From a virus: a stretch of 26,050 nucleotides of DNA. Position 1 is the stretch's first letter, and each line of letters opens with the position of its first letter. A program made the position numbers and the translations under genes. The stretch lies in the IMG/VR virus record IMGVR_UViG_3300034760_000007, positions 1 to 26,050 of that record. One strand, written 5' to 3'. Below the pieces are notes generated by a model that saw only the letters and a program-made list of their open reading frames with translations, made no database searches and had not been told where the DNA came from. Below are positions 5,736 through 26,050 of the stretch, piece by piece.

Positions 5736-5753
5736 CTCCCAAAGGAGGGCGAC

Positions 5754-6314
5754 ATGCCCGACGAGCCCACTCCCACCCCCGACTCCGCAGAGCCGGACCC
5801 GACGCCTACCCCGCCCGCTGAGGACGAGGCAGCGAAGTGGAAGGCGCTAGCCCGCAAGCACGAGAAGGAAGCCAAGCGCCTCCAGGGCCTCGAGTCCGAC
5901 ATGGAGAAGCTCCGTGAGGCGTCACAGACCGAGCAGGAGAAGGCGCTAGCCGACGCCCGCAAGGAAGCCGCTTCCACCGCCACGACGGAGGCGACAACCA
6001 AGGCCAACCGCCGCGTCCTCACTGCTGAGATCAAGGCCGCCGCCGGCACGAAGCTGGCTGACCCGGCCGACGCCGTCCGGCTTCTCGACCTGGACTCCTT
6101 CGACATCGACGACGACGGCGAGGTCGACCAGAAGGCCATCACCGCCGCCATCCAAGACCTGCTGAAGACCAAGCCCTATTTGGCGGCCAATGGGAAGCTC
6201 CCGACGCCCTCCGCTGACGGCGGCCCCCGCAGAGGAACCGACTCGGCCGAGAACGTCAGTCCCGGCATCGGTCGTCTCCGGCACGCCTACAGCACAACGA
6301 GCAAGAAGACCTAG
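5754..6314 (+). CDS. Scaffolding protein
   Basis: This 186-residue protein lies between portal and major capsid genes, where the internal scaffold of procapsids is encoded. Residues 1-25 are Pro/Asp/Glu-rich and probably disordered. Residues ~26-70 (AAKWKALARKHEKEAKRLQ, LESDMEKLREASQTEQEKA) form a strongly predicted coiled coil. An acidic segment (DLDSFDIDDDGEVDQKAI) precedes a C-terminus ending in basic residues that may touch the capsid. Acidic-helical character and gene order fit the scaffolds of many actinophages. There is no serine-protease motif, so no capsid-cleaving activity is evident. The ribosome site aaaggagg just upstream is strong. Confidence 0.85.
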   Translation: MPDEPTPTPDSAEPDPTPTPPAEDEAAKWKALARKHEKEAKRLQGLESDMEKLREASQTEQEKALADARKEAASTATTEATTKANRRVLTAEIKAAAGTKLADPADAVRLLDLDSFDIDDDGEVDQKAITAAIQDLLKTKPYLAANGKLPTPSADGGPRRGTDSAENVSPGIGRLRHAYSTTSKKT

Positions 6315-6319
6315 TACCT

Positions 6320-6337
6320 GCCCGCCACTCGACGGGC
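6320..6337 (+). other. Small hairpin before the capsid gene
   Basis: GCCCG (6320-6324) can pair with CGGGC (6333-6337) around an 8-base loop, in the short gap before the capsid gene and just ahead of its ribosome site (aaggag, 6345-6350). No T-run follows, so it is not a typical terminator. With only five pairs in GC-rich DNA it may be chance; if real, it could protect the capsid mRNA 5' end. Confidence 0.25.
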
Positions 6338-6357
6338 TGACCACAAGGAGAAACCCA

Positions 6358-7428
6358 GTGTTCCAGTCCCTGCAGTGGCTCGCTATGGCGGCGCTCGTCG
6401 TCCTTGTTGCCTACCTGTTCGCCACCAAGCTCGACCACAGCGCCGCCGGCGGCCTGTGGGCCCGCCTCACCTACCACCAGCTCGCCCCCGAGCGGGGCGC
6501 ACTGACCCTCGTCGAGGCGGCCAAGCTCTCGCAGAATGACCTTCAGCGCGGGGTCATCGAGACCTTCGTCATCGAGAGCGCCGTGCTCGACCGCCTGCCG
6601 CTGATGCCCATCGAGGGCAACGCCTACGCCTACAACGAGGAGGCGACTCTCCCTGGCGTGGAGTTCCGAGCCGTCAACGCCGCCTATGCCGAGTCGACCG
6701 GCACGGTCAACCCCAAGACGGAGTCGCTGGTCATCCTCGGTGGTGACGCCGACGTCGACCGGTTCATCGTCCAGACCCGCGGCAACCTGAACGACCAGCG
6801 CGCCACTCAGACCCGCATGAAGGTCAAGGCGGCCGTCTACAAGTTCCAGGACGCCTTCGTCAACGGCGACACCGCCGTCGACGCCAACAGCTTCGACGGT
6901 CTGAAGAAGCGCCTCACCGGCGCCCAGGTCATCTCGGCCGCGACAAACGGCCTCGGCCCGGTCGCCGGCGGCCACGACTTCTTCGACGCCCTCGACGCCC
7001 TGATCGCCGCCGTACCAGGCGGTCCGGACGCCCTGTACTCCAACTCCGGCATCCGGGCCAAGATCCGGTCCTCGGCCCGGCGCCTCGGCGGTTGGGACAA
7101 CTACACCGAGATCGAGACCGGAAAGGCCATCGAGCGGTACAACGGCATCCCCCTGCTCGACATCGGCACGAAGGCTGACGGCACCGCCATCATCCCCCAG
7201 ACCGAGACGCAGGGCTCGTCCTCCGTCGCCTCATCCATCTACGCGGTGCGGTTCGGCCAGGACGAGACCGACCAGGCGGTCACCGGCCTCGACAACGGCG
7301 GCATCGACGTCCGGGACCTCGGCGAGATCGACGCCAAGCCGGTCTACCGGACCCGCATCGAGTTCTACTGCGGCCTCGCCGTGTTCGGCCGGGGCGCCGC
7401 CCGCCTCACCGGAGTCCTCGCCGCCTGA
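6358..7428 (+). CDS. Major capsid protein, HK97 fold, with N-terminal hydrophobic segment
   Basis: This 356-residue protein is the main shell subunit. From about residue 48 (ALTLVEAAKLSQND, RGVIETFVIESAVLDRLP, YAYNEEATLPGVEF) it matches the HK97-fold capsid proteins of actinophages, and NDQRATQTRMKVKA and DALDALIAAVPG are consistent with the later part. I chose GTG 6358 because aaggag lies 7 bases upstream; the same frame is open further back into the scaffold gene but without such a site. Oddly, residues 5-23 (LQWLAMAALVVLVAYLFAT) form a membrane-like helix before the normal family start. There is no later standard start, so this extension appears genuinely encoded. No protease gene is present to remove it. 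Confidence 0.93.
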   Translation: MFQSLQWLAMAALVVLVAYLFATKLDHSAAGGLWARLTYHQLAPERGALTLVEAAKLSQNDLQRGVIETFVIESAVLDRLPLMPIEGNAYAYNEEATLPGVEFRAVNAAYAESTGTVNPKTESLVILGGDADVDRFIVQTRGNLNDQRATQTRMKVKAAVYKFQDAFVNGDTAVDANSFDGLKKRLTGAQVISAATNGLGPVAGGHDFFDALDALIAAVPGGPDALYSNSGIRAKIRSSARRLGGWDNYTEIETGKAIERYNGIPLLDIGTKADGTAIIPQTETQGSSSVASSIYAVRFGQDETDQAVTGLDNGGIDVRDLGEIDAKPVYRTRIEFYCGLAVFGRGAARLTGVLAA

Positions 7429-19874: not shown

Positions 19875-20197
19875 AGATTCCCGAGGGTTTCGACCTTGCC
19901 GCTCATCGGTTTGTCAGCGACAGTTCCAAGGCGACAGGGAAGCTGCTGCACGACGAGGGCAGCCGTGGCGACTCCCGCGCTGACGACCTGCTGGTGCGCA
20001 TCAATCCGGACAGGCCGAAGACTGCGGTCGCTGAAACGCTGCTACACGAGACGATGCACTGCATCTGGTCCGCGACAGCGCTCCGGGGCCATGCCGCAGA
20101 AGAGCACGAAGAGGCAATCGTGACAGGGCTCGCTCCGCTCCTGCTGGAAGTGCTCCGGAGGAACCCCGACTTGGTGGAGTTCCTGGTCTCAGCATGA
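19871..20197 (+). CDS. Small HExxH metalloprotein
   Basis: This 108-residue protein starts with GTG in a GTGA overlap with the tube paralogue. It carries a zinc-protease motif at LLHETMHCIW (H59, E60, H63). A glutamate cluster at 77-81 (EEHEE) could supply the third ligand, as in gluzincin-like or ImmA/IrrE-like folds. The rest includes an N-terminal β-segment (DDLLVRINPDRPKT) and a C-terminal helix (GLAPLLLEVLRRNPDLVEFL). No signal peptide is seen. It could cut a tail or host protein, or be a structural relative that binds zinc. Its end overlaps the next gene (ATGA), so it is made in step with tail proteins. Confidence 0.82.
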   Translation: MKIPEGFDLAAHRFVSDSSKATGKLLHDEGSRGDSRADDLLVRINPDRPKTAVAETLLHETMHCIWSATALRGHAAEEHEEAIVTGLAPLLLEVLRRNPDLVEFLVSA

Positions 20198-22212
20198 CGG
20201 TCACCTACCAGGCCAACGTGCCGGTTCCCACCTACCGCATCGGCTTCGCCGCCCAGCCCCTCGACCCGCTGTTCGGCATCGTGTGGACCGACATCACCAC
20301 GTTCACCCACAGCGACGGCCTCGACCGCCTCCGGGTGCTCTCCCGCAACTCCACCGCCGGCACCCAGCACGAGCTCAGCAAGGTCGAGGCCAGCGTGGGG
20401 CGCTACGTGCTCGACAACCGCGACGGGGCGTTCAACCCCATGAACACCGCCAGCCCCTACTACCCCAACGTCAAGACCGGCGTCATCTTCCAGGAGCGCC
20501 AGACGTGGGGCGGCATCATCCGCAACGTCTTCACCGGGTTCATCGAGGACTACGCCCTGCAGTGGGACAACGAGGGGCTGTCGCAGGTCGCCATCAACTG
20601 CGTCGACGCCTTCAAATGGCTGAACCTCGACAAGCTGGACGAGAGCGCCTGGCGCATCGAGGTCCGCAAGGACGTCAGCGCCAATGTGGCCGCCGGCCGC
20701 AACACCGCATGGCTTCGGCTCAACGAGTCACAGAGCGCCGAGGTTGCCACCGATTACAGCGGCATGGGCTTCGACGGCACCTACCAGCAGGGCCCCTTCC
20801 TCGGCCAGCCGCCCATCATCGCCGGCGACACCGACACGTCGATGGACGTGGCCGCCGAAGCCGACAGTCGGGCCAGCCTTCCGTACAAGCACCTCATCAC
20901 CGGGTTTCCCTTCACCTTCGAGTGCGTGTTCCGAGCCTTCGCCAACCGCGAGTACACACGGATGATCGTGGCAGCCTTCGACGGGCCGGTGGTCTTCCGC
21001 CAGATGTTCGAGGTGTTCATCCAGTCGGTCCACGGCAGCCCCTCCGACGTGGGCAAGATCATCGCGTTGGTGGCGAGCCCGTACCCCACCGGCACCCAGA
21101 GTGAGTCAACCATCACCGTCGACGACGGGGAGGTCCACCACCTCGCCATCGTCATGTCTGCGAGCAACAGCCTGCGCATCTGGGTCGACGGTGTCGACGT
21201 CACGCTCCAGACGCATACCGGCTCCTTCGCCTTTCCCAACGACCTGGTCAGCGGCTATGCCATCGGCAACTCTCCGGCCGTCAACTTCGGCGACTACGGC
21301 TTCGACGCCGGAGCCCAAGAGGACGACGAGGGGAACCTCGTCCTTGGCGGCATCCAGTCGGCGGTCTTCTACGACGGCCTCGCCCTGTCCTCCACCCGCA
21401 TCGCCGCCCACTCCCTCGCCGCTCGCACCGGCTGGGGGGCGGAGTCCACCGAGGCCCGCATCGGTCGCATCCTCGACGCCATCGGCTGGGCGCCAGCCGA
21501 CCGGGACCTCAACGTCGGCAACGTCGACGTCGTCGCCGGAGTCCCCGGCGGAACGGGGCTGGCGCACGTCGACATCGTCACCGAGACCGAGGGCGGCCGG
21601 TTCTACATATCACCCGGCGGGTTGGCAACCTTTCGCTCCCGCACCTACCCCATCCTTAACGTCCGGGCCACGGTGTCTCGGGCCACCTTCACCGACGACG
21701 GCACGCCCGACACCATCCCCTACGTCCCGCCCTTCGACCCCCACCTCGACGACCTCGACACCTGGACCCGGGCGAGCGTGGCCCGCATCAACGGGCCCCC
21801 GCAGGTCTACGACGCCACCCCCGGCAGCAACGCCACCCGCACACTGACGAAGACGGGGCTGCTTTTCGCTGAGGACCGGGACGCCCGGCACATGGCGCAG
21901 TACCTCGCCAACCTCTACCGCACGTCGAGGGTTCGGGTTCGCACCCTGGCCTTCATGCCGCAGAAGTCCCCGACCCTCGGGTGGCCCGCCGCCCTCGACC
22001 TGCGCCAGTGGGACCGCATCACCGTCAAGCGCACCCCGGCCGGCGGTGGTGCGGCGTGGATCTCCGACTGGATCATCGAGGGCATAGAGCACGACTGGTC
22101 GAGCGGTGCCACCTACTGGGAGACCCGCCTGTCCCTCAGCCCCGCCGATCCCGCCCGCTACTTCGTGATCGGCTCAAGCTTGATCGGCTCGAGCGACGTC
22201 CTGTTCTACTGA
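20194..22212 (+). CDS. Minor tail (hub-type) protein with LamG insertion
   Basis: This 672-residue protein resembles the large minor tail proteins of actinophages that form the hub below the tube. Residues ~1-165 (NVPVPTYRIGFAAQPLDPL, LSKVEASVGRYVLDNRDGAF, VFTGFIEDYALQWDNEGLSQ) and ~410-672 (IGRILDAIGWAPADRDLN, AEDRDARHMAQYLANLYR, WDRITVKRTP) are the two halves of the tail fold. Residues ~172-410 are an inserted LamG-like lectin domain (FTFECVFRAF, VDDGEVHHLAIVMSASNSLR, GGIQSAVFYDGLALS). The lectin part likely touches host glycans. Start ATG 20194 is in an ATGA overlap. Confidence 0.88.
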   Translation: MTVTYQANVPVPTYRIGFAAQPLDPLFGIVWTDITTFTHSDGLDRLRVLSRNSTAGTQHELSKVEASVGRYVLDNRDGAFNPMNTASPYYPNVKTGVIFQERQTWGGIIRNVFTGFIEDYALQWDNEGLSQVAINCVDAFKWLNLDKLDESAWRIEVRKDVSANVAAGRNTAWLRLNESQSAEVATDYSGMGFDGTYQQGPFLGQPPIIAGDTDTSMDVAAEADSRASLPYKHLITGFPFTFECVFRAFANREYTRMIVAAFDGPVVFRQMFEVFIQSVHGSPSDVGKIIALVASPYPTGTQSESTITVDDGEVHHLAIVMSASNSLRIWVDGVDVTLQTHTGSFAFPNDLVSGYAIGNSPAVNFGDYGFDAGAQEDDEGNLVLGGIQSAVFYDGLALSSTRIAAHSLAARTGWGAESTEARIGRILDAIGWAPADRDLNVGNVDVVAGVPGGTGLAHVDIVTETEGGRFYISPGGLATFRSRTYPILNVRATVSRATFTDDGTPDTIPYVPPFDPHLDDLDTWTRASVARINGPPQVYDATPGSNATRTLTKTGLLFAEDRDARHMAQYLANLYRTSRVRVRTLAFMPQKSPTLGWPAALDLRQWDRITVKRTPAGGGAAWISDWIIEGIEHDWSSGATYWETRLSLSPADPARYFVIGSSLIGSSDVLFY

Positions 22213-22221
22213 GGAGACGCC

Positions 22222-22656
22222 ATGCACATTGTTGAGGCGTCCCCCGACTACCTCGCCCGACTGTTCATCGAGAACGACCACCCCCACATCCGGGGCGGCA
22301 TGTGGATTCGGCACCGCAACGGCCAGCCACCGTTCGAGCCGCAGGGCTTCGCCCTGGGAGCGTCCCTCCCGGCCGAGGTCTACGAGGGCCAGTGGATCGT
22401 GCGCTGTGACGGGTGCCGGAACAGCCAGCTCACCAGCCGCGACGACAAGCGGTTCTTCTGCGTCAACTGCCTGAACGCCAACCACGGCGGGCAGTGGGTC
22501 AAGGTCACCTGGCCCCGCAAGGCCGACGACATCGAGGCCCTGCTGGTCGCCCGACCGTCGTTCCTGAATCGCAACTACACGCCGGGAGAAACCGTGCCGC
22601 AGCTCGCCGCCGAGAACAAAGAGCACAAGGCCCCCGTGCCGGCCGGGCTGCGCTAG
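22222..22656 (+). CDS. Zinc-ribbon protein of a type found in actinophage tail regions
   Basis: This 144-residue protein starts at ATG 22222 after gaggag. It has CDGC (around residue 72) and CVNC (around 90) in the pattern WIVRCDGCRNSQLTSRDDKR-FFCVNC, and an ending of the kind ...IEALLVARPSFLNRNYTPGETV-PQLAAENKEH. This arrangement, with R-P-x-x-x-x-N-R-x-Y/W-x-P-G-E-T-V, recurs in uncharacterised actinophage proteins encoded among minor tail genes. A single zinc site is likely. Whether it is a virion part or an assembly factor cannot be told from sequence. The TAG stop shares a base with the next GTG. Confidence 0.82.
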   Translation: MHIVEASPDYLARLFIENDHPHIRGGMWIRHRNGQPPFEPQGFALGASLPAEVYEGQWIVRCDGCRNSQLTSRDDKRFFCVNCLNANHGGQWVKVTWPRKADDIEALLVARPSFLNRNYTPGETVPQLAAENKEHKAPVPAGLR

Positions 22657-23141
22657 TGGCCTGGTCTGCCCCTCCGACGTTCGTCACCGGCGCTGTCCTG
22701 ACCGCGGCGCAGCTCCAGACCCTCAGCGATGACCTCACAGACCTCGACCGCAGGACGACCCCAGTGGCCGCCGGCGACGGCTCCGTGAGGACCACCAACA
22801 GCACCGTCTACGTCTCCCTCGGGACAGCTGCGGTGACCTGCACCATCGGTTCCACCGGCAAGGCGCTGGTCACGCTGTACTCGTCCTTCCAGGGAGACAC
22901 GGTCGGGATGCTGGTGATCATGTCGTACCAGATCACTGGGGCCTTCTCCTACGGCCCGAGCGACTCCGACGCCCTCACCTATCAGGTCTCCGACGCCCTG
23001 TTCTCCTCCCGCCACGGCGCCACCCACGTCGCTACCGGCATCACCCCCGGATCCTGCACCTTCACGGCCAAGTACGGCGTGAGCAGCGGCACCGGCAGCT
23101 TCAAGGACAGCCGCATCACCGTGACCCCGCTGGGCGCGTAG
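22656..23141 (+). CDS. Small fibre-like tail protein
   Basis: This 161-residue protein starts at GTG 22656 overlapping the preceding stop; upstream in-frame sequence belongs to the zinc-ribbon gene. The N-terminus (APPTFVTGAVLTAAQLQTL, DDLTDL) is the short helical motif often seen at the start of minor tail and fibre subunits in actinophages. The rest is β-rich (NSTVYVSLGTAAVTCTIG, KALVTLYSSFQG, CTFTAKYGVSSGTGSF), compatible with a small jelly-roll head. It may be a trimeric short fibre. The stop abuts the beta-helix gene. Confidence 0.78.
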   Translation: MAWSAPPTFVTGAVLTAAQLQTLSDDLTDLDRRTTPVAAGDGSVRTTNSTVYVSLGTAAVTCTIGSTGKALVTLYSSFQGDTVGMLVIMSYQITGAFSYGPSDSDALTYQVSDALFSSRHGATHVATGITPGSCTFTAKYGVSSGTGSFKDSRITVTPLGA

Positions 23142-24725
23142 ATGGGCCTACCGTCCAGCTACGACGAGTGGGCGGGCAACCAGAACGTGGCCCACTCCAC
23201 GGTCTCGAAGCTCTACGACGAGGCGTTCGGCATCATGGGCTTCGGTGGCCCCACCTCCGACCGCCGATGGACCTCCACGTTCGTCAAGGCCCTCGCCGCC
23301 CTCGGCGCCCGAGCATCCGCCGGCGGCCCGGCCATCGCCCTCGTGGTACCCAAGGGCCACGTCTTCGACGTGGAGCTCGACGTCCTGGACCTTCCGCCCA
23401 ACGTCCATTGGGCCGGCGGCGGCCGCCTGGTCACCAACCAAACCGGCACCGGCAACAACGGGGCGTTCGTCACCGGCGCCCGGGCCCAGGGCGTCGTCCT
23501 CGACGGTATCGAGTTCGAGTCGCCCAACAACACCGTCACCGCGGTGCGAATCCTCTCCTCGAGCGACATCGAGATTCGAGGCTGCCGGTTCTACGAGACG
23601 ACCATCCTGGGCGCCAACAACAACGACATTCTGTACGCCCACGTCGACACCTCGGCCAACGGCAACGTGTGCCGGGACATCCGGGTAATCGGCAACTACG
23701 CCACCCGCGTGCAGACCGACGCCTCACCGCACGCCGCCATCCTCCCGCTCTACACAGTGGGCGGGGTCATCGCCAACAACCGGATCGTGGGGCACCACCA
23801 GGGCGTGCAGTTCTGGGGCGGCAACGCCAACCCCGGCGCCAACGGGGTGCGGGCCAACGAGCGCAAATGCTCTGACATCGCCATCACCGGCAACGTCGTC
23901 ACCGGCAGCGTCGAGGGCGGCATCTGGGGCTCCATGGGCAAGCGGATCACCATCACCGGCAACGTGGTCAACGGCGCCGGCGACGTCGCCATCGACTTCG
24001 AGGGCTGCACCAACTGCGTCGCCTCGGGCAACACCGTCACCGGCGCACAGAACCATGCGCTGACCACGTTCTTCCAGTGCGACGACATCGTGTTCTCGGG
24101 GAACACCTGCACCACCACGGTCATGAACGGCGGCATGGCCCGAGTGGTCAACGGCTCCGGCATGCCGGACGTCCGCAACGTCAAGTTCATCGGGAACACC
24201 TTCGACTGCCTCAACGGCACCGGCAGCGTCCTGATCGAAACCTCTGAGACCGTGACCTTCGCCGGCAACGACTGCCGCAACGTGGCGATCATCACCAGGG
24301 TCAACAACCAGTTCCACACCATCATCCGCGACAACACGCTGTTCTTCGACCGGGTCGCCGTGACGGCGTTCCAGGCTATGGACCTGGGGTTCAACAACAT
24401 CCACGGCCGGCTGTTCGTGCAGCGCAACATCGTCACCAGCACGGTCCCTCAGCCGGCGCTGTCGGGGGCCATCCACAACGACCAGTTCGACGACAACAAC
24501 CCGGCGCTGTCGATCATCGAAGGCAACTTCATCGGTCCAGGTTTCGAGTACACGATCAGGAACCGCTGGGCCGGACCCGGTCCCGGCGTCAACGTGGCCA
24601 AGGCGCTCATCCGGGACAACATGTTCCCGGTCGGGTCACCGCCCTCGTTCGCTGAGTCGGGCGTCCTGCCCTCCATCGTCGAGGTCGAGGGCAACCGCTA
24701 CGACGACCTCACTCCTTGGCCCTGA
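23142..24725 (+). CDS. Right-handed beta-helix tailspike
   Basis: This 527-residue protein is almost wholly β-helix. After an N-terminal ~75 residues (SSYDEWAGNQNVAHSTVSKL), repeats of about 22-30 residues follow the pattern x-I-x-G-N-x-V/I-x-G (DIEIRGCRFYETTI, DIAITGNVVTGSVEGGIW, RITITGNVVNGAGDVAIDF, DIVFSGNTCTTTV, NVKFIGNTFDCL, TVTFAGNDCRNV). Such spikes bind or cut surface polysaccharides. No pectate-lyase catalytic set can be assigned by eye. It could be an enzyme (lyase or hydrolase) or a pure binder. Start ATG 23142 directly follows the previous TAG. Confidence 0.88.
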   Translation: MGLPSSYDEWAGNQNVAHSTVSKLYDEAFGIMGFGGPTSDRRWTSTFVKALAALGARASAGGPAIALVVPKGHVFDVELDVLDLPPNVHWAGGGRLVTNQTGTGNNGAFVTGARAQGVVLDGIEFESPNNTVTAVRILSSSDIEIRGCRFYETTILGANNNDILYAHVDTSANGNVCRDIRVIGNYATRVQTDASPHAAILPLYTVGGVIANNRIVGHHQGVQFWGGNANPGANGVRANERKCSDIAITGNVVTGSVEGGIWGSMGKRITITGNVVNGAGDVAIDFEGCTNCVASGNTVTGAQNHALTTFFQCDDIVFSGNTCTTTVMNGGMARVVNGSGMPDVRNVKFIGNTFDCLNGTGSVLIETSETVTFAGNDCRNVAIITRVNNQFHTIIRDNTLFFDRVAVTAFQAMDLGFNNIHGRLFVQRNIVTSTVPQPALSGAIHNDQFDDNNPALSIIEGNFIGPGFEYTIRNRWAGPGPGVNVAKALIRDNMFPVGSPPSFAESGVLPSIVEVEGNRYDDLTPWP

Positions 24726-24882: not shown

Positions 24883-25041
24883 ATGAGGACTCGATTCGCC
24901 GTCCTACTCCGCCGCTTCGCCGACCGACTCGACCTGCCCACAATGACCATCTCAGGCAACCGCATCGGCAACTACGCCCAGGGCGTCCAGTGGACCGGCA
25001 ATACCGGGATCACCTTCACCTGCAACACGTTCTCTGAGTGA
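24883..25041 (+). CDS. Small protein resembling a single beta-helix rung
   Basis: This 52-residue protein starts at ATG 24883 with a strong gagggagg site. Residues 1-19 (MRTRFAVLLRRFADRLDLP) form an amphipathic basic helix of a kind often found at the start of actinophage small proteins. Residues ~21-52 (MTISGNRIGNYAQGV, TGITFTCNTFSE) look like one or two coils of a β-helix and resemble repeats in the adjacent tailspike (AITGNVVTGSVEGGIW). It could cap or extend the spike, or be a remnant of a larger spike gene. It ends with a GTGA overlap with the matrixin gene. Confidence 0.7.
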   Translation: MRTRFAVLLRRFADRLDLPTMTISGNRIGNYAQGVQWTGNTGITFTCNTFSE

Positions 25042-26050
25042 AGCCGAGACCTCCCCGGAACCCGGAGAAGCCCAGCAAGGTCGGTTTGGCCGAAGGCACC
25101 ACCGGCCCCGACGTCGCGGATCTGCAGCACTACCTCGCCCGGTACGGCTACCTGCAGCTCAACCCGAGCCGGACACCGGATGAGCGGCGGGAGTTCACCA
25201 ACGAGACGGCGGCGGCTCTCGCCCGCTACCAGAAGTTCTACAAGCTGCGGGTCACCGGCAAGCTGACCAGGGCCACCGTCGAACTCATGAGCAAGCCCCG
25301 ATGCGGGGTGCCCGACGTTGACCCGCCGGGCGTTCGAGGCTACGCGGCCGTGGGCAGCAAGTGGTCCTTCACCGACCTGAACTACGCCTTCTACAACCAC
25401 GCGTCGAGCCTCACCATCGGAGAGACCGAGACCGCCGTCGCCGATGGCCTCCAGCTCTGGGCCGACAACAGCCCGCTCACCTTCACCCCGGTTCTCATGG
25501 GCGCCACCCACGAGTTAGAAGCCGGGTGGTATACCGGCGACCACGGCGACGGCGCCGCCAACGTGTTCGACGGATTCGGCGGCCCCGGCCCAGTGGCCCA
25601 CTGCAACTACCCGCCCCCGGCAGGTGGGTCGGCCTACGTCACCGCCGGCCACGCCCACTACGACGACGGCGAGCCGTGGAACGTCGATGGCAGCCAGTAC
25701 GACCTCATGGCGGCGGCGGCGCACGAGTACGGCCACGGCCTCGGGCTCAACCACAGCGAGTACCAGGACGCCGTCATGTACGGAATCCTCCTCGGTCCCC
25801 ACAGCGAACTCCACTTCGACGACATCAACGGCATCCAGGCCATCTACCCCGGAGCGGTCGATCCGCCGCAGGACCCGGGCGGCACGCTCCCGGCGGTACC
25901 CACGGGAGTCTCGGCAACGGCCCTGTCCGCCTCGTCCATCGAGATCGCCTGGTCGGCGGCGTCCGGCGCCACCAGCTACGTCGTGGGGGTGGCCGACTCC
26001 GGCGCCGGCCCCTTCCCCAACATGGACACCACGGCGGGCACCACGCTGAC
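25038..26050 (+). CDS. Matrixin (matrix metalloproteinase) zymogen with PG-binding-like propeptide and FN3; 3' end outside window
   Basis: This gene starts with GTG in a GTGA overlap and stays open to the window end (at least 337 residues). Residues ~15-86 are a peptidoglycan-binding-like propeptide (GPDVADLQHYLARYGYL, ALARYQKFYKLRVTGKL). It ends in the cysteine switch PRCGVPD (87-93), where C89 should block the zinc. The catalytic domain keeps structural zinc ligands H169, D171, H188 and H207, the FDGFGG loop (177-182), AHYDDGEPW (206-214), the zinc motif HEYGHGLGLNH (H229, E230, H233, H239), a Met-turn (M247-Y248-G249) and FDDINGIQAIYPG. An FN3 domain begins near 286. No signal peptide is seen, so virion mounting or release by lysis is likely. 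All catalytic residues are intact. Confidence 0.92.
   Translation, partial: MKPRPPRNPEKPSKVGLAEGTTGPDVADLQHYLARYGYLQLNPSRTPDERREFTNETAAALARYQKFYKLRVTGKLTRATVELMSKPRCGVPDVDPPGVRGYAAVGSKWSFTDLNYAFYNHASSLTIGETETAVADGLQLWADNSPLTFTPVLMGATHELEAGWYTGDHGDGAANVFDGFGGPGPVAHCNYPPPAGGSAYVTAGHAHYDDGEPWNVDGSQYDLMAAAAHEYGHGLGLNHSEYQDAVMYGILLGPHSELHFDDINGIQAIYPGAVDPPQDPGGTLPAVPTGVSATALSASSIEIAWSAASGATSYVVGVADSGAGPFPNMDTTAGTTL

Follow-up and report, generated by a model that had tools for sequence, protein, structure and literature searches.

The nearest described system to the phage protease reported here, within the open-licence literature and going by its abstract, is the Listeria metzincin Mtz, which is phage-derived, works on the envelope and promotes lysis (PMC8235301). 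The enzymes of phage tails are usually seen as sugar-cutting depolymerases and wall-cutting lysins. In animal matrix metalloproteinases (MMPs), the prodomain has the PG_binding_1 (PF01471) fold and does not bind cell walls, and oxidation and prodomain cleavage are known activation routes; karilysin of Tannerella forsythia has a short propeptide and an aspartate switch in place of the cysteine switch. The window, that is, the whole stretch of DNA analyzed here, is a linear IMG/VR fragment of 26,050 bases and represents a Rowa-like actinophage late module, in which the tail gene cluster encodes a matrixin downstream of the tail spike. Our data confirmed that the cysteine-switch matrixin in the ORF at 25038-26050 is real, far beyond chance, and no description of a phage cysteine-switch matrixin was found in the open-licence literature.

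Gene neighborhood and domain layout

Upstream of the matrixin, on the same strand, lie genes for the terminase, an SPP1-type portal, a scaffold, the major capsid protein (MCP; 76% to Streptomyces phage Rowa), a connector, tail proteins and a beta-helix tail spike. The last genes of this series are listed below.

20194..22212, + strand: tail protein with a laminin-G-like domain (phrog_5313, 3.9e-30; PF13385)
22653..23141, + strand: minor tail protein (phrog_7565, 1.8e-7)
23142..24725, + strand: right-handed beta-helix tail spike (PF13229, 1.9e-8; phrog_2234 tail spike, 1.1e-9)
24883..25041, + strand: 52-aa ORF with a Shine-Dalgarno site and a GTGA overlap with the matrixin start
25038..26050, + strand: phage matrixin CDS, GTG start, truncated at the contig end, 337 aa read

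The tail spike matched annotated tail spikes at 28-30%, and no relatives of it were found in IMG/VR. The GTGA overlap suggests that translation of the 52-aa ORF and the matrixin may be coupled. The GC3 of the matrixin gene (0.905) and its codon usage fell inside the range of the other late genes of the contig. Together with this overlap and an unrelated phage contig (L118) in which a switch matrixin immediately follows a baseplate J gene, these values bear out the proposal of the earlier note that the protease is phage-encoded and sits beside tail genes; they also gave no compositional sign of a host-DNA chimera at the contig end, which that note had named as a finding that would count against it. 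The contig ends inside the gene, with no stop codon reached, and the near-identical contig L002 stops before it, so the junction between tail spike and matrixin is without confirmation from a second contig. Among the head genes of the window, the MCP was called as a 412-aa ORF that overlaps the scaffold ORF, its true start being near 6499, and no head maturation protease was seen between portal and scaffold (5736-6500), where Rowa has one. In another contig, a protein (L003:13463-14437, + strand) two genes downstream of a distant relative of the window's tail gene showed putative papain-like GDCV and GGHCV motifs when read by eye, Pfam calling only a PEGA domain, and is perhaps another protease at a tail-block end.

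The domains and motifs of the phage matrixin were assigned as follows.

25101..25289, + strand: prodomain with the PG_binding_1 fold (residues 22-84; PF01471; helices H24-35, H55-67 and H78-84 in the model)
25296..25316, + strand: cysteine switch PRCGVPD (residues 87-93; C89 codon at 25302-25304)
25359..25847, + strand: M10A matrixin catalytic domain (residues 108-270; PF00413; pLDDT mostly >90)
25542..25658, + strand: structural-zinc ligands H169, D171, H188 and H207, aligned with MMP-1 and bacterial homologues
25722..25754, + strand: catalytic zinc motif HEYGHGLGLNH (residues 229-239; H229, E230, H233, H239)
25776..25778, + strand: Met-turn M247, invariant in alignments
25818..25838, + strand: DDINGIQ, start of the C-terminal helix (residues 261-267)
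25878..26048, + strand: FN3-like domain, start only (residues 281-337; phrog_7440, 9e-4, and tblastn)

As anticipated in the earlier note, Pfam found both PG_binding_1 (1.8e-14) and Peptidase_M10 (7.2e-31; profile positions 1-158 of 159), and no NCBIfam family scored above its cut-off. The protein carries the marks by which matrixins (M10A) are recognized, namely HExxHxxGxxH, the Met-turn, structural zinc ligands consisting of three histidines and one aspartate, and the fold, and its PRCGVPD agrees with the PRCG(V/N)PD of pro-MMPs, whereas the N-terminal signal peptide of animal and plant MMPs is absent. C89, E230, the three zinc histidines and M247 were invariant across an alignment of 10 sequences with bacterial relatives, and H169, H188 and H207 were kept in at least 90%; D171 was kept in both human MMPs aligned (2/2). 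The best solved relative by sequence in phmmer was human proMMP-1 (2.9e-38, residues 24-285), with further matches to proMMP-10, proMMP-3 and karilysin. The MMP layout proposed earlier thus held for the prodomain, switch, zinc sites, Met-turn and DDINGIQ, while its FN3 domain is only begun (~55 residues present) and was not called by Pfam, the support being a weak match to PHROG 7440 (9e-4) and tblastn matches of the C-terminal part to FN3-like C-terminal regions of other proteins. The idea that this part is a copy of the FN3 of a 917-aa virion protein was rejected, blastp giving no match between the two. The N-terminus (MKPRPPRNPEKPSK...) has no signal peptide, and a longer start form with a host-type secretion signal, another finding that would have told against the earlier proposal, is ruled out because the codon directly before the GTG start is an in-frame TGA.

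An AlphaFold2 model built from an alignment of 25 rows had pLDDT >90 for most of residues 11-270 and <50 in the FN3-like part, the latter because this domain is truncated by the contig end. In Foldseek, the best PDB matches of the model were proenzymes rather than mature enzymes and spanned both prodomain and catalytic domain (proMMP-10, TMt 0.86; proMMP-1, rmsd 2.2 A over 251 columns; proMMP-3 also among the best); MMP catalytic domains gave TMt of about 0.9. These matches suggest that the modelled prodomain sits over the active site in the manner of pro-MMPs, an arrangement compatible with the predicted reach of C89 to the zinc, as had been proposed, with the caveat that pro-MMPs were in the AlphaFold2 training data. 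The "PG-binding-like" prodomain of the earlier note is right as a fold and unsupported as a function: PF01471 is also the MMP prodomain fold, so a PG_binding_1 match is no proof of wall binding, and the suggestion that binding to peptidoglycan triggers activation is unsupported.

Relatives in bacteria and viruses

A profile search revealed 33 bacterial loci related to the phage matrixin, including 10 intact loci with the prodomain, an RCG-type switch (RCAMPD in one) and the M10 domain in the same order and without a signal peptide; in L013, the called ORF starts within the prodomain. The closest relatives are chromosomal bacterial genes of about 35-47% identity in scattered phyla, and full-length ones are rare (3/396 Actinomycetota genomes). 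The flanks of four of these loci (L005, L006, L007 and L016), judged by eye from ORF translations, held seemingly ordinary chromosomal genes and no recognizable phage genes. Bacterial relatives with a signal peptide lacked the cysteine switch. By a simple hydrophobicity rule, a hydrophobic leader was found in none of 22 switch proteins (0/12 bacterial and 0/10 viral, including the 25038 matrixin) and in 15 of 20 close bacterial relatives without the cysteine. One protein (L074) has a leader and has kept the prodomain, its cysteine being gone (PRYDERPD). The leaderless switch proteins and L074 fit with the view that an enzyme retained in the cell needs to be latent, although the link between leader and switch did not reach significance when relatedness was taken into account (a single independent pair on well-supported branches), in a test of too little power. 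The earlier note had taken the missing secretion signal to suggest a protease carried on the virion. This argument fails to discriminate, since all 12 bacterial cysteine-switch matrixins found here are leaderless as well; leader absence is the rule for switch matrixins in our sample and says nothing about virions.

Direct searches of viral and genome contigs with the phage matrixin protein returned no relatives, nor did a first profile search of viral contigs, in which the patterns had fallen in the prodomain. Profile and pattern scans then identified at least nine further IMG/VR contigs encoding an RCGxxD switch and a matrixin domain without a leader (L037, L118, L129, L137, L151, L163, L166, L173 and L197), eight of the nine coming from the pattern scan. 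In a tenth viral contig, L204, the motif reads RCGCPS and the prodomain is gone. The cysteine-switch matrixin of the earlier note is real but not a one-off, and phages appear to use this class of latent proteases. In L037, the matrixin gene is isolated and lies on the other strand from the terminase, a moron-like setting. In the group of L129, L151, L163 and L166, a phage RNA polymerase gene lies near the switch matrixin of L163, its product (L163:5678-9361, + strand) matching RNA polymerase beta-subunit PHROGs. No match was obtained when the 25038, L137 and L166 proteins were compared with 50,697 phage records.

The layout closest to that of the phage matrixin under study was found in L137 (8311-9477, - strand), where an FN3-like C-terminal part was read by eye and from weak tail PHROG matches. 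Homologous proteins lie near the switch matrixin in three large-phage contigs (L137:6587-8302, - strand; L197:3319-4785, - strand; L118:6317-7242, + strand), as the next gene in L137 and L118 and about 1.1 kb off in L197. They share a signal-peptide-like N-terminus and blastp values of 1e-17 to 7e-6 among themselves, and belong to no Pfam or PHROG family; a CxxCH heme-c motif occurs in the L137 and L197 copies, the L118 copy being cut before that region. This protein is a possible conserved partner of the switch matrixin. In two further contigs, tape-measure-like proteins of 1701 aa (L148:7832-12937, + strand) and 1137 aa (L101:9316-12729, + strand) contain a HEIGHALGLPH metzincin domain embedded near the C-terminus (Pfam M10, 2.2e-6 in L148).

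Phylogenetic analysis placed the large-phage switch matrixins, which are the pattern-scan proteins entered in the tree, in one clade (99/97), the 25038 matrixin among the bacterial PG_binding types and L037 elsewhere. Several independent acquisitions of switch matrixins by phages are favored by this tree rather than shown, because it separates the phage proteins, yet a single clade of all of them was not rejected in the AU test (p 0.075).

A probable latent protease and its possible sites of action

Taken together, the motifs and the predicted fold lead us to lean, by a modest degree, towards a latent, late-expressed matrixin zinc endopeptidase that C89 would hold inactive in the cytosol and that would become active outside the cell. 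The protein would be made from one of the last genes of the phage tail operon and would accumulate in the host cytosol alongside virion parts. In this reducing compartment, C89 would cap the catalytic zinc, so the enzyme could not digest phage or host proteins during particle assembly. It may then exit in the lysate or along with the particle, with the C-terminal FN3 part as a conceivable anchor. Once out of the cell, the switch would open through oxidation of C89 or cleavage of the prodomain, and the active enzyme would cut surface proteins of the next host or proteins of the matrix that surrounds cells, so that the receptor becomes easier to reach. The truncation of the gene leaves the putative anchoring part and the downstream genes unseen, which counts against this explanation. 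As to where the enzyme would act, the virion comes first in our ranking without being probable in itself, release in soluble form at lysis ranks second, and other sites taken together rank last.

A broader statement, that tailed phages of several lineages carry a tail-borne cysteine-switch protease that is off during assembly and serves adsorption, is tentative and in our judgment rather unlikely; the same doubt attaches to its trigger, C89 oxidation or contact outside the cell, and to its targets, host surface proteins. If the tail-borne reading were true, it would introduce a penetration enzyme triggered by redox state or contact, as a class of its own beside depolymerases and lysins.

A leaderless, latent MMP-class protease beside tail genes, with relatives in no fewer than nine other virus contigs, suggests that phages attack protein layers too. 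It also suggests that, to produce a protease within the cell, phages rely on the cysteine latch known from animals.

The strongest competing explanation, which we regard as a realistic option short of probable, is a soluble lysis helper, latent in the cytosol and active only after lysis, that frees progeny to disperse by cleaving surface or matrix proteins and is not part of the virion. In Rowa, the nearest annotated phage, the tail block gives way at this point to the lysin, which makes it just as plausible that the matrixin opens a lysis or cargo cassette. The PG_binding-type prodomain with its weak PHROG endolysin matches and the many leaderless bacterial relatives of the same layout that have no virion point in this direction, as does Mtz, which acts on the envelope and promotes lysis but, unlike the phage matrixin, is secreted (PMC8235301, abstract). 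Such a role is harder to reconcile with a gene that lies near the tail spike and overlaps the ORF between them, and neither holin nor lysin was seen up to the contig end.

Less probable still is a moron or cargo gene, that is, a bacterial extracellular protease that a temperate phage acquired and that serves the lysogen in nutrition or biofilm, without any role in infection. The chromosomal location of the closest relatives, the position of the 25038 matrixin among them in the tree and the solitary L037 gene on the opposite strand would all fit such a gene. The matrixin under study, however, runs in the direction of the late tail genes and overlaps them, which leaves no room for a promoter of its own; lacking a leader, the protein would not exit a lysogen by the usual route; and no integrase occurred among the proteins scanned in the fragment.

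A virion maturation protease cutting a phage protein, an alternative raised in the earlier note and in line with the absence from the window of the head maturation protease that Rowa has, is very unlikely, since a long distance separates the gene from the head genes, SPP1-type phages that use a scaffold are not known to need a protease, and a reduced cytosol would hold C89 on the zinc during assembly. We give equally little weight to a chimera of the contig end with host DNA, in which the gene would not be phage-borne: the matrixin comes last on a linear fragment and L002 ends before it, but the GTGA overlap with the preceding ORF, a GC3 and codon usage matching the late genes and the presence of such genes in at least nine further virus contigs all argue against it.

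Comparison with known systems

The latent matrixin that we favor can be set beside known proteins. Bacterial matrixin family metalloproteases with a PG_binding_1 prodomain (Paenibacillus L005, Ornithinimicrobium L006, Chloroflexia L007, Streptomyces L012 and L016) are nearest in the tree and resemble it in domain order, a PRCG[FV]PD-type switch and the lack of a leader, whereas their C-termini differ (KTSC, DUF4214 and others). Karilysin is 42-43% identical in the catalytic domain (rmsd 1.4-1.8 A) but, unlike the phage matrixin, is secreted. Among virus-encoded proteins in BFVD, insect-virus MMPs (granulovirus, ascovirus, iridovirus and nudivirus) share the matrixin fold and have eukaryotic hosts, and the phage M10 proteins A0A6J5RTD2, A0A6J5P205 and that of Lactobacillus phage 3-521 carry generic names only and are structurally further away. 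Mtz, in contrast to the phage matrixin, is secreted, encoded at a chromosomal remnant locus and paired with the TIMP-like lipoprotein Tim, and its abstract makes no mention of a cysteine switch (PMC8235301).

Animal and plant MMPs (M10A; proMMP-1 and proMMP-10) have in common with the phage protein the prodomain fold, the PRCGVPD switch, both zinc sites and the Met-turn. The phage matrixin differs from them in lacking a signal peptide, in being phage-encoded, in an identity of about 35% and in a C-terminus that is FN3-like instead of hemopexin. Phage matrixins would also offer simple, minimal MMP zymogens for the study of switch opening. Collectively, the matrixin family and the switch layout were already known; what is new is their occurrence in a phage and, repeatedly, in other virus contigs.
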